DNA of 47,827 bases, taken from positions 1 through 47,827 of the forward strand of contig SCSX01000029.1 of assembly GCA_004297825.1 (NCBI GenBank). Direction: 5' to 3'. This document shows positions 1 to 47,827 of the stretch, in pieces. The translations under genes and the position numbers were made by a program. The stretch's first letter is position 1, and each line of letters starts with the position of its first letter. Under the pieces are notes generated by a model. It saw nothing but the letters and a program-made list of their open reading frames with translations. It did not search any database and was not told the DNA's origin. Source of the stretch: Spirochaetota bacterium (lineage in GTDB: Bacteria > Spirochaetota > UBA4802 > UBA5368).

Positions 1-186
1 CTGGTGGCGATCGCCACGGACCGATATCTGGACGAAATATTGCAAGGCAAGAAAAACAGGCATAACTATGCAAAGTTTTCTCACTATGCCATCGGCCAGA
101 GGATCGAAAATGGCATCATTTGTTGGGAATTGTACTGGGGAGACCCCGGCGACACGCCGAAGGAGAAAATACACCGCTGTACATAA
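1..186 (+). CDS. Small repeated-family protein, copy A (C-terminal fragment cut by window edge)
   Basis: The reading frame is open from base 1, so only the last 61 residues are visible. They match the C-terminal part of the proteins at 30756-31235 and 36889-37410: a helix with LVAIATDRYLDEIL, a variable linker, then the motif ICWELYWG and a basic tail. By comparison with the complete copies, this is the end of a second ribbon-helix-helix-like unit and the family's C-terminal Cys-Trp-aromatic motif. Function is unknown; DNA binding is inferred from fold pattern only. The ATG at base 4 lies inside the conserved helix and is not a credible start. The gene converges on the hybrid kinase that follows, with 48 bases between them. 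Confidence 0.75.
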   Translation: MVAIATDRYLDEILQGKKNRHNYAKFSHYAIGQRIENGIICWELYWGDPGDTPKEKIHRCT

Positions 187-29373: not shown

Positions 29374-30420
29374 TTACTTGGCCGCCGCGGCCGGTGCGGT
29401 TTCGTCGTTTTCTACGATAAGCCCCGCGGCGATCTTGATCTTGCGTTCGATGTCGCCAGAGATGTCGGGATGGTCTTTCAAAAACTGTTTCGCGTTCTCG
29501 CGTCCCTGGCCGATGCGCTCCTCGCCGTACGAGTACCAGGTGCCCGCCTTCTTGACGATACCCAGGCTCGTGCCCATATCGATCATGCCGCCCTCGCGCG
29601 AGATGCCGGAATCGTACATGACGTCGAACTCGGCCTGGCGGAAGGGGGGCGACACCTTGTTCTTGACGACCTTCACGCGCACCCGGTTGCCCACGGCCTC
29701 CTCGCCGTTCTTGAGCGTTTCGATGCGCCGGATGTCGAGCCGGATGGACGCATAGAACTTGAGCGCGTTTCCGCCTGTGGTCGTCTCGGGGCTCCCGAAC
29801 ATGACGCCTATCTTGTGGCGGATCTGGTTGATGAACACCACCGAGGTCTTCGACTTCGCGATCACGCCGGTGAGCTTCCTGAGCGCCTGGCTCATGAGGC
29901 GCGCCTGCAGGCCCATGTGGGAATCGCCCATCTCGCCCTCGATCTCGGCCTTGGGAACGAGCGCGGCCACCGAGTCGATGACCACGATGTCCACCGCCCC
30001 CGAGCGCACGAGCGCCTCGGTGATCTCGAGCGCCTCCTCGCCGGTGTCGGGCTGGGATACCAGGAGCTCGTCCGTGTTGACGCCGAGCTTTTTCGAATAG
30101 CCGGGATCCAGGGCGTGTTCCGCGTCCACGAAGGCCGCGACGCCGCCCAGCTTCTGGGCCTGGGCGACCACGTGGAGCATGAGCGTGGTCTTGCCGGAGC
30201 TTTCCGGGCCGAATATCTCGGTGATGCGCCCGCGCGGTATGCCGCCTATGCCGAGCGCGATATCGAGCTCAAGCGCCCCCGTGGAGATGGACTCCACCTT
30301 GATCTTCGCGGAATCGTCGCCGAGCCGCATGATGGCTCCCTTGCCGAACTGCTTCTCGATCTGCAGAATCGCCGATTCGAGCGCCTGTGATTTCTGGTTA
30401 AGTTCCTTCTGGTCCGCCAT
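29374..30420 (-). CDS. recA: Recombinase RecA
   Basis: 348 residues from ATG 30420 ([12 protein letters not shown]), chosen because it aligns with family N-termini and has AAGGAG six bases upstream. ATG 30453, with GAAGGAG seven bases upstream, would add 11 residues and cannot be excluded. Walker [10 protein letters not shown], Walker B with [14 protein letters not shown], the L1/L2 loops ([30 protein letters not shown]) and the C-terminal acidic/Ala tail are as in canonical RecA. It forms filaments on single-stranded DNA for recombination and SOS induction. An imperfect palindrome upstream may be an SOS operator. Confidence 0.97.
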
Positions 30421-30453
30421 CTCCCTCTCCTTGACCGGTGCTGCGCTGCTCAT

Positions 30454-30755
30454 GGGGCATCTCCTTCACTGCCTTGGTTTATCGTGATATATATAGTACG
30501 ATTTATTGCAAGAAAATATAAACGACATAATCGAAAAAACCTTTATGTGCGCATCCTTCATCCAATGTATCGGACTGTCAAGCGAAATACTATACAAAAA
30601 TATGGCATACGGGCGAATGTGTTAAAAAATTGGGGGCCGATGCGCTTGCCCGACGCGCGGGGAAGCGTATGGGCACTTTTATTGCCTGGAAAACGTTCAT
30701 ATTTTTCATTCTCCATTCGTATCCACTTTGGGCGCTCTTGTCCCGGAGGATACAA
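30454..30755. other. 302-base divergent region between recA and family copy B
   Basis: AT-rich near recA, with the palindrome listed separately. Near copy B it holds a leader segment (30716-30737) that is 19 of 22 identical to the leader of copy D, and the ribosome site GGAGGATACAA. No gene seen. Confidence 0.45.
30481..30502 (-). promoter_or_regulatory. Imperfect palindrome upstream of recA (candidate SOS operator)
   Basis: Arms ATCGT and ACGAT flank a self-complementary TATATATA core, 18 of 22 positions symmetrical, 28 bases upstream of the outer recA ATG. It resembles neither the Escherichia nor Bacillus LexA box, so a lineage-specific LexA site is only a hypothesis. Confidence 0.35.
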
Positions 30756-31235
30756 ATGCTTCGCACATCCATCAATATGAGTTATGCTGTCTTCGAGAAG
30801 ATCGCTCTTGCCGCAGCCAGGCGCGGAATATGCCGCAGGGAGCTCGTCATCATGCTCCTCAGGCGTGTTTTACGCGATATCGACCGGTTTCAGGGAGGAT
30901 TCACCCTGGTGAGGTATCAGCCCCGCGATCCCCTAAAGCAATGGAAGCATTTTCCGATCTGCTTCAGGAAGAACGAAAACGAGTTCTCCCAGGACTTCCG
31001 TAAGCTGAGCAGGTTCTCACTCTCGTATCTGGTAGCCATCGCGACCAGGCGCTACCTGGACGAGTTGCTGCGCGAACGGGATGCCATGTGTAACTATTCA
31101 CAATTTCCACAGTATGCCATCGGCCGGAGGACCATAAAGCACGTTACCTGCTGGGAATTCTACTGGGGGAACACCGAAAACCTCCCGAAAAGGGCCTCCC
31201 CAGCACGAATACTCCGCCGAACCACTGCACAATAG
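30756..31235 (+). CDS. Small repeated-family protein, copy B (tandem ribbon-helix-helix-like)
   Basis: 159 residues from ATG 30756, preceded by GGAGGATACAA. Residues 2-41 read as a ribbon-helix-helix unit (strand RTSINMS, helix AVFEKIALAAARRG, turn and helix CRRELVIMLLRRVL). A linker with GGFTLVRYQP (47-56) follows, then a second similar unit at about 64-105 (strand HFPICFR, helix ENEFSQDFRKLSRF, helix SLSYLVAIATRRYLDELL). The C-terminus has CWEFYWG (132-138) and a basic tail. Copies A, C and D share these parts. The layout recalls Leptospira DUF1564 proteins, from memory and unverified. Function unknown; DNA binding is inferred. It lies between recA (divergent) and a PerR-like regulator gene. 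Confidence 0.8.
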   Translation: MLRTSINMSYAVFEKIALAAARRGICRRELVIMLLRRVLRDIDRFQGGFTLVRYQPRDPLKQWKHFPICFRKNENEFSQDFRKLSRFSLSYLVAIATRRYLDELLRERDAMCNYSQFPQYAIGRRTIKHVTCWEFYWGNTENLPKRASPARILRRTTAQ

Positions 31236-31374
31236 GCATTTCATCTGCATACGCGCGCCAGGCCTGGGGCGAGCCATGCCCATTCACCTTTGCTTGCCCT
31301 GGAAAATAATTCACACTCCTTCACGTAAAATAAACATTCCGGCATATTGAGATTGACTGGGCATAGTGAGTTGC

Positions 31375-36888: not shown

Positions 36889-37410
36889 TTACCAGTGCGA
36901 AATGACGGGCCGGCCGCGGGGGCGAGAGGGATTATCGGCGGTTGTGCGGAGCTTTTTGGCACGGGGATGGGTTTTTTTGGGGTTTTTTGGGTTTCCCCAG
37001 TAATATATCCAGCACCGAAGGCCTTCGACCTGTTCTTGGCTGATAAAATAATTAATATAGTTTAAATAGTTATTTAATTCATCATGAGGCATCCGCAGCA
37101 ATTCATCCAAATAGAGCCTCACCGCAATAGCAAGAAGATGAGAAACAGTAATTTTGCAAAGCTTGCGCATATCCGTAAAAAACTCATTCTCATCCTCCCT
37201 GATCTGGAGGCAGAAGCAATGCCACCGTTTCTCCGGGTCGGCCGGCTGATACTTCACCAGGGTAAACCCGCCCTGCAGCCGGTCGATATCGCGCATGATA
37301 CGCTTCAACAAAAGCACCACGATATCGCGCTGTTTGGATTCCTTCAAGCCTGCGGCGCGGATGATCCTTTCTCTTGTGGTACAATGCATATTGATCGTGG
37401 TAGTCAGCAT
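36889..37410 (-). CDS. Small repeated-family protein, copy C (tandem ribbon-helix-helix-like)
   Basis: 173 residues from ATG 37410 (MLTTTINMHC). Architecture matches copy B: an N-terminal ribbon-helix-helix-like unit with TTTINM and IVVLLLKRIMRDIDRLQ, the linker GGFTLVKYQPADP, a second unit ending HLLAIAVRLYLDELL, then CWIYYWGNPKNPKK. The C-terminus carries about 20 extra residues (RTTADNPSRPRGRPVISHW) absent from B. It is more diverged from B than D is, and lies in a locally AT-richer stretch between the RNA methyltransferase and an orphan STAS-like gene. DNA binding is inferred only. Confidence 0.8.
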   Translation of the reverse strand: MLTTTINMHCTTRERIIRAAGLKESKQRDIVVLLLKRIMRDIDRLQGGFTLVKYQPADPEKRWHCFCLQIREDENEFFTDMRKLCKITVSHLLAIAVRLYLDELLRMPHDELNNYLNYINYFISQEQVEGLRCWIYYWGNPKNPKKTHPRAKKLRTTADNPSRPRGRPVISHW

Positions 37411-47221: not shown

Positions 47222-47580
47222 ATGTTTTATTTCGGGAAATAGTATTTCCAGGTTCGATTATGCTTACAAGGACAGGGTGGGAAGCGCAAAGGTTGCGATA
47301 TTTTTATTACAAAATGGTTTTCCTTAAGGTACTGCTTTTTACAACTCCATGTATTCATTTCGTCGAATCGTGGAGGCACAGAAATGTTTTTAAAATAGTC
47401 TGAATATCCCTGACTCTCCGGGCTGCTGCGGAAATCACCTTGTTATAATAATTCAGAATTAATTGGGGTGTGAATTATTTTCCAGGTGTTTAAAAGGAGA
47501 ATCCGGGAAAAGTGTTACAATTTTCTGCCACTCCTTCGTATTCACTTTAGACGCTCCACTCTTTCTTCGGAGAATACGGA
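47222..47580. other. 359-base divergent, AT-rich intergenic region
   Basis: Lies between the radical SAM gene (minus) and family copy D (plus). It holds the 7-1-7 palindrome at 47235-47249, and near its right end (47535-47556) the leader shared with copy B and a GGAG ribosome site. No gene seen. Confidence 0.45.
47235..47249. promoter_or_regulatory. Perfect 7-1-7 inverted repeat upstream of the radical SAM gene
   Basis: GGAAATA-G-TATTTCC. It lies 14 bases upstream of the GTG and 29 bases upstream of the preferred ATG of the minus-strand radical SAM gene. The geometry equals that of the PerR-like box at 31381-31395, but the sequence differs, so the binding protein is unknown. Confidence 0.4.
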
Positions 47581-47827
47581 ATGCTGCGAACGAGCATCAA
47601 TATGAGAATCGCCATCTTCATTAAGATAGGTCTCGCCGCCGCCAAGCTTGGAATATCCCGCCGCGAGGTCGTGATTATGATTCTTATGCGTATACGACAC
47701 AACATTGATCACTTCCAGGGGGGCTTTACGCTGGTGAAGTACCAGCCGCGTGATCCACGGAAACTTTGGCATTGCTTTCCGATTACCTTCAGGAAGAATG
47801 AGAATGAGCTTGTTTCGGATTTCCGCA
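47581..47827 (+). CDS. Small repeated-family protein, copy D (N-terminal part, cut by window edge)
   Basis: The first 82 residues are visible from ATG 47581, with CGGAGAA upstream; the frame is open to the window end. The N-terminal unit reads RTSINMR, then IFIKIGLAAAKLG and ISRREVVIMILMRI, a close match to a ribbon-helix-helix (GISRRE turn). The linker is GGFTLVKYQPRDP and the start of unit two is CFPITFRKNENELVSDFR. It is the closest copy to B in both protein and leader DNA. Function unknown. Confidence 0.78.
   Translation, partial: MLRTSINMRIAIFIKIGLAAAKLGISRREVVIMILMRIRHNIDHFQGGFTLVKYQPRDPRKLWHCFPITFRKNENELVSDFR

Follow-up and report, generated by a model that had tools for sequence, protein, structure and literature searches.

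We describe here a large family of predicted single-chain ribbon-helix-helix (RHH) proteins in an order of Spirochaetota, many copies of which lie in small repeat-bounded units. The reading that we favor, and consider somewhat probable overall, is that these are TraY-like DNA-binding proteins, multiplied by non-autonomous ISKra4-type transposition and expressed in a DNA-uptake regulon shared with dprA. The family had no name; it reaches about 50 copies per genome (54 protein matches at most) and occurs in 23 of the 46 genomes of the order. To our knowledge, the single-chain RHH fold has so far been solved mainly in TraY. Newly found here are the non-autonomous ISKra4-type units that carry a family gene, and an upstream motif common to the family and dprA. 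Together, these suggest a route by which bacterial regulator families can grow, namely, capture by a non-autonomous ISKra4-type element with both the promoter and selection on the coding sequence retained, and the motif gives a first handle on possible regulation of DNA uptake in this group.

Family copies in the window and across the genome

The window, i.e., the whole stretch of DNA analyzed, is contig C29 from end to end (47,827 bp), part of a Spirochaetota metagenome-assembled genome (MAG; 4.89 Mb in 96 contigs, 95% complete). The initial annotation had recognized four copies here and expected more of them dispersed across the genome. All four are real, two complete and two truncated, and a protein search found 53 family matches in the genome, with the best paralogue at E 1e-50. 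Copy 1 (1..186, plus strand) retains the C-terminal part from about residue 92 onward, where it is cut by the contig start, and its downstream terminal repeat is decayed. Copy 2 (30756..31235, plus strand) is a complete tandem RHH gene of 159 amino acids, predicted to encode two beta-alpha-alpha units and a C-terminal hairpin. Copy 3 (36889..37410, minus strand) is also complete, with 173 amino acids, but divergent, at 48% identity to copy 2. Copy 4 (47581..47827, plus strand) holds the N-terminal 82 residues and is cut by the contig end. The GGFTLV-[RK]YQP linker and the CW-x-x-YWG motif that had been read from the sequence are both present.

The truncation of copies 1 and 4 is due to assembly breaks at the contig ends. 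Because the family is a high-copy repeat, contigs are expected to break at its copies, and of the 192 contig ends in this genome, 26 are no more than 35 bp away from a family match. Copies 1 and 4 may also be the two halves of a single gene on a circular contig, although breaks in this conserved part of the gene recur on other contigs, at residue 82 in C57 and at residue 90 in C93 and C95. The window neighbors of the copies include recA, a FUR regulator, a protease, and an RNA methyltransferase, and have no common theme. The recA gene (29374-30453, minus strand) is divergent from copy 2, with about 300 bp between them. Rfam and tRNA searches of the window gave no matches, and no viral relatives of the family were found in a single scan.

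A predicted single-chain ribbon-helix-helix fold

Structure prediction bears out the earlier suggestion of two RHH-like units in one chain. The AlphaFold model (mean pLDDT, 80) has a strand at residues 2-9 and helices at 10-23 and 27-40, followed by a second strand at 63-70 and helices at 72-85 and 89-106, and it ends in a C-terminal beta hairpin that bears the CW-x-x-YWG motif. Seven positions are invariant in an alignment of 21 family sequences (T4, V52, Q55, D80, S90, W133, and W137). The top matches among solved structures (Foldseek, VIA) are chains of the F-plasmid relaxosome (Z 10.0 over 97 residues, rmsd 3.1), and the next are AvtR (Z 7.6) and single-chain Arc (Z 6.3), which are RHH proteins. 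Judging by its fold, the matched relaxosome chain is probably TraY, which in the F plasmid is a monomer holding an entire RHH dimer fold (PDB 9f0x-9f12; PMC12117103). The prediction supports the view that both halves of an RHH dimer are fused in one chain in the family, as in TraY, and suggests that the family proteins bind DNA. At the sequence level the signal is faint. Pfam RHH matches are weak (RHH_5 in 4 and RHH_1 in 2 of the 21 members; best E, 0.0023), and profile comparison of the two halves gave no signal of internal homology.

The likeness to TraY is one of architecture, a single chain with the whole RHH dimer fold. Identity is about 13%, and the NCBIfam TraY profile hits 1 of 21 members at E 0.089, which is no sequence-family match. 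The family also differs from TraY in its additional C-terminal beta hairpin with W-x3-W-G and in its tens of copies per genome. Ten window genes around the copies include no conjugation genes, and neither an oriT nor a relaxase or tra gene lies near those copies that we inspected.

The initial annotation had also likened the layout to DUF1564 (PF07600) of the Leptospira type. The likeness holds for the layout: DUF1564 has the same predicted beta-alpha-alpha arrangement in duplicate (model of mean pLDDT 69 from 9 sequences), a conserved Y-Q in the linker, TraY as its best match (Z 8.9), and likewise tens of copies per genome. It does not extend to membership, which is ruled out by profile search. 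None of the 21 members match the DUF1564 Pfam profile, and none of the listed genomes of the order, this one included, has a DUF1564 match. Direct comparison by hhalign gave a probability of 10% and a score of 25 versus 15 for the best column shuffle, i.e., no significant sequence relation, and the family upstream motif was not found in the 8 DUF1564 loci tested. The most fitting description of DUF1564 is a family that is either analogous or very remote. The parallel points to large families of single-chain RHH proteins as something that recurs in spirochaetes and is so far unexplained.

Non-autonomous ISKra4-type units

In one lineage, about 17 copies share ∼90% identity between about −113 and +560 relative to the ATG, with no relation to one another farther out. 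These limits define a unit of ∼670 bp with terminal inverted repeats (TIRs) of ∼20 bp, a single open reading frame (ORF), and no transposase inside. The left end reads GGGTGTGAATTA[AT]TTTTCGGG and the right end ...CCGGAAAAT-TCACACTC. At three mismatches or fewer, the 19-base TIR core has 44 matches in this genome versus 1 for a control sequence. In the window, the unit of copy 2 has its right repeat at 31298..31316 (minus strand; GTGTGAATTATTTTCCAGG read inward) and a decayed left repeat, and the unit of copy 4 has its left repeat, also GTGTGAATTATTTTCCAGG, at 47468..47486 (plus strand). No terminal repeats were found around copy 3, and its upstream motif is under threshold. Four units are flanked by apparent target duplications, matching at 8/8 bp in two (L004 and L005) and 7/8 bp in the others (L003 and L006), whereas 272 mismatched left-right flank pairs reached 5/8 at best and none reached 6/8. 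These four are the only clear duplications kept among about nine units with both ends recognizable; two more look shifted.

The composition of the unit bears on the idea of an orphan antitoxin family, which had been one of the roles proposed. RHH domains are common in antitoxins, and the best PDB sequence matches of the family, all insignificant, include MazE7 and MazE6. However, the repeated unit has one ORF and no toxin or other recurrent partner gene, and no Pfam or NCBIfam antitoxin profile matched above threshold, so that we regard this role as very improbable.

What, then, moved the units? A same-family relative, G002, carries a 1.5-kb insertion sequence (IS; L197) with nearly the same ends (TIR GGGAGTGAATTAA...), bordered on both sides by GTCATGCG as a target duplication. 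Its 372-amino-acid transposase belongs to ISKra4 (NF033572, 259.8 bits versus a curated cut-off of 205). Because this IS combines nearly identical ends with an ISKra4 transposase, we conclude that the TIR-bounded copies in our genome are non-autonomous ISKra4-type elements, presumably moved by an ISKra4 transposase acting in trans. ISs are often lost from MAGs, and an ISKra4 transposase was not found in this assembly, for which reason mobilization in trans is given here as an inference. The genome has a single IS256-family element (L129, G000:C14:226-1317), which carries terminal repeats and is flanked by what looks like a GCGAAAC target duplication. We rejected IS256 as the mobilizer because its inner repeat, TTGTGTAAACGG, is not that of the unit ends.

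The units resemble mobile insertion cassettes and other non-autonomous IS derivatives (e.g., PMC5444012) in having IS inverted repeats, a target duplication, one passenger gene, and no transposase. They differ in their ISKra4-type ends, in an RHH passenger that appears to bring its own regulon promoter, in their tens of copies, and in being under purifying selection. Relative to the ISKra4 family (p-MULT 4, Mutator superfamily; PMC3942029), nearly the same ends are shared by the G002 IS, but the RHH units lack the transposase. Spirochaetota are absent from the phylum list given for the ISKra4 group (PMC3942029).

Other genomes of the order have ISKra4-like ends too. Some of these genomes lack RHH copies, and one of the latter carries a full ISKra4 IS with these ends. 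G025 has 32 such ends and one RHH copy, and no ISKra4-family transposase was detected in its assembly. Many of the G025 ends (L180-L194) form miniature elements (MITEs) of about 130-330 bp. Perfect 8-bp duplications flank the MITEs L186 (GACGCAAT) and L199 (GCCAATAA).

These distributions bear on whether the RHH protein is itself required for mobility, as a transposition accessory or a new recombinase, in a selfish family that recognizes ISKra4-like ends. Such a role would fit a genome that has about 50 copies and no transposase with these ends, a protein conserved during spread, and proliferation of the family in several lineages. Yet the G025 MITEs with the same ends are abundant without an RHH gene, the ends occur in genomes that lack the family, including the one with the full IS, and copies in a related genus are syntenic and lack the ends (see below). 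No catalytic motif was seen in the protein. We therefore consider a part of the RHH protein in transposition to be quite improbable, and continue to favor mobilization in trans.

Selection and history

For the recent lineage, 12 copies (66 pairs) give a mean dN of 0.033 and a mean dS of 0.219, with a dN/dS of 0.148, which indicates that the protein was maintained by purifying selection during its spread. The recent-lineage copies form one clade of this genome in the phylogenetic tree, while its other copies interleave with those of related genera. In the genus g12 (G017, G029, and G032), copies are reciprocal best matches in conserved neighborhoods, with 2.5-5.4 kb shared (tblastx) by ten G017-G029 locus pairs. 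Terminal repeats are absent from the g12 copies at 2 mismatches. Given this combination of synteny and missing repeats, mobility is not a property of the whole family: it was either acquired later, in one lineage, or lost elsewhere. The proposal that the gene is the cargo of an undefined mobile unit can be revised on this basis. It applies to many copies in this genome, for which the unit is now defined by its ISKra4-type repeats and 8-bp target duplications, but not to the family as a whole, since copies in another genus are syntenic orthologues. A divergent branch of the protein family, found in family f6 (G012, with 39 matches; L113-L118), has an IETTTCI N terminus and no recognizable upstream motif.

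A more ordinary possibility is that the family expanded as a set of local transcription regulators, each governing its neighbor, with mobility incidental. The single-chain RHH fold, the stable syntenic paralogues of g12, and purifying selection are all compatible with this. However, the insertion sites of the mobile copies are mutually unrelated, the window neighbors share no theme, and the upstream motif precedes the RHH gene itself rather than its neighbors. We think local regulation unlikely as the general role, and prefer a regulon defined by the motif.

A shared upstream motif

Most family members, mobile or not, carry a promoter-like motif upstream, which the initial annotation had overlooked. 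Of 100 non-redundant upstream regions, 44 contain the exact heptamer TTCGTAT, versus 1.4 expected, and mostly 40-50 nt 5′ of the ATG. The full motif is a 38-column matrix, GAAAA-N2-kTT ... CCCATTCGTAT, in which CGT is almost invariant; it holds a weak AAAA-N9-TTTT inverted repeat and ends about 38 nt before the start codon (median, −38). In the window, it precedes copy 2 at 30685..30722 (plus strand; CCTGGAAAACGTTCATATTTTTCATTCTCCATTCGTAT, score 37.1) and copy 4 at 47504..47541 (plus strand; CGGGAAAAGTGTTACAATTTTCTGCCACTCCTTCGTAT, score 29.2). Upstream of recA in the window, the score is only 7.7, which we did not count.

How specific is the motif? With a matrix that was trained on the family genes themselves, all 30 of 30 sites scoring at least 16 lie before family genes, with none elsewhere in 357 kb (the window, 212 kb of genus g12, and 97 kb of other loci). 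We also scanned 1.19 Mb of this genome (24%), fetched irrespective of the motif, at a score of at least 14, and found 14 sites versus 0 in a reversed control. These precede eight family genes, dprA (27.6), an integrase-like gene, and three genes for unknown or secreted proteins, and one site has no clear gene. Two loci with the motif, L229 (G000:C15, ∼117.7 kb; score 34.0) and L231 (G000:C33, ∼61.6 kb; 27.4), encode proteins without a Pfam match. With only 14 sites in 1.19 Mb, a general promoter of the organism is ruled out. From its sequence and position, the motif may instead act as a promoter shared by a restricted set of genes.

Does the motif mark a DNA-uptake regulon?

In 6 of 10 genomes, the motif stands upstream of the true dprA, with scores of 14.1-27.6, against a 99th percentile of 4.4 in random 200-bp pieces. 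Five of the six motif-bearing dprA genes come from one genus, so the six cases are not independent. The motif was found upstream of comEC in 0 of 10 genomes and upstream of a second DprA-like gene in 0 of 10; comM carries it in one genome. In late-competence regulons, dprA is under a dedicated promoter, e.g., that of ComX in streptococci, with its cin-box TACGAATA. The situation here is similar in that one motif is common to dprA and a set of dispersed genes. It differs in the motif itself (ATTCGTAT rather than TACGAATA, read in the direction of transcription) and in that comEC lacks it.

We favor a single scheme that joins these observations. An ISKra4-family transposase, acting in trans, would have moved the ∼670-bp units, and since each unit brings its own promoter, every new copy would enter the same regulon. 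This regulon would be turned on with DNA uptake, and the family proteins would bind DNA in that state. Most likely, they are expressed together with dprA and probably regulate themselves: they would most likely act as auto- and cross-repressors of the shared promoter and/or coat specific sites, which would lie on incoming or chromosomal DNA. DNA uptake may in this way be tied to a hitch-hiking gene family. A bolder form of the scheme is a DNA-uptake regulon in uncultured Spirochaetota that has tens of single-chain RHH proteins acting on incoming DNA as its largest group of members and grows by transposition of the gene together with a competence promoter. We offer this form as a speculation that is rather doubtful.

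The motif could be an operator instead of a promoter. If it were the operator of the RHH proteins, the family would be a large set of cross-regulating repressors that act on themselves, dprA, comM, and some mobile genes and have no connection to a competence sigma factor or activator. The motif is nearly confined to the family and contains the weak inverted repeat, and RHH proteins, TraY among them, typically control their own promoters. On the other hand, the motif is spaced from the start codon as a promoter −10 region would be, the CGTAT box is conserved far better than any symmetric half-site, and paralogues at ∼30% identity should have diverged operators. We regard the operator as a serious alternative, though one that is less probable than not, and retain the promoter as the preferred reading.

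In five whole genomes, a looser pattern gave more sites, some of which are background in AT-rich genomes. The genes behind some of these sites encode IS200-like Y1 transposases, ORF6N and DUF559 proteins, a DNA methylase, a ComM-type Mg-chelatase protein, and a phage-integrase-like protein. Because genes of the first three kinds (Y1 transposase, ORF6N, DUF559) also follow the motif, the regulon may serve something other than competence. In G017 (L236, L245, L239, L241, and L240), such genes stand alone behind it, as if solitary mobile genes formed a class with a common promoter.
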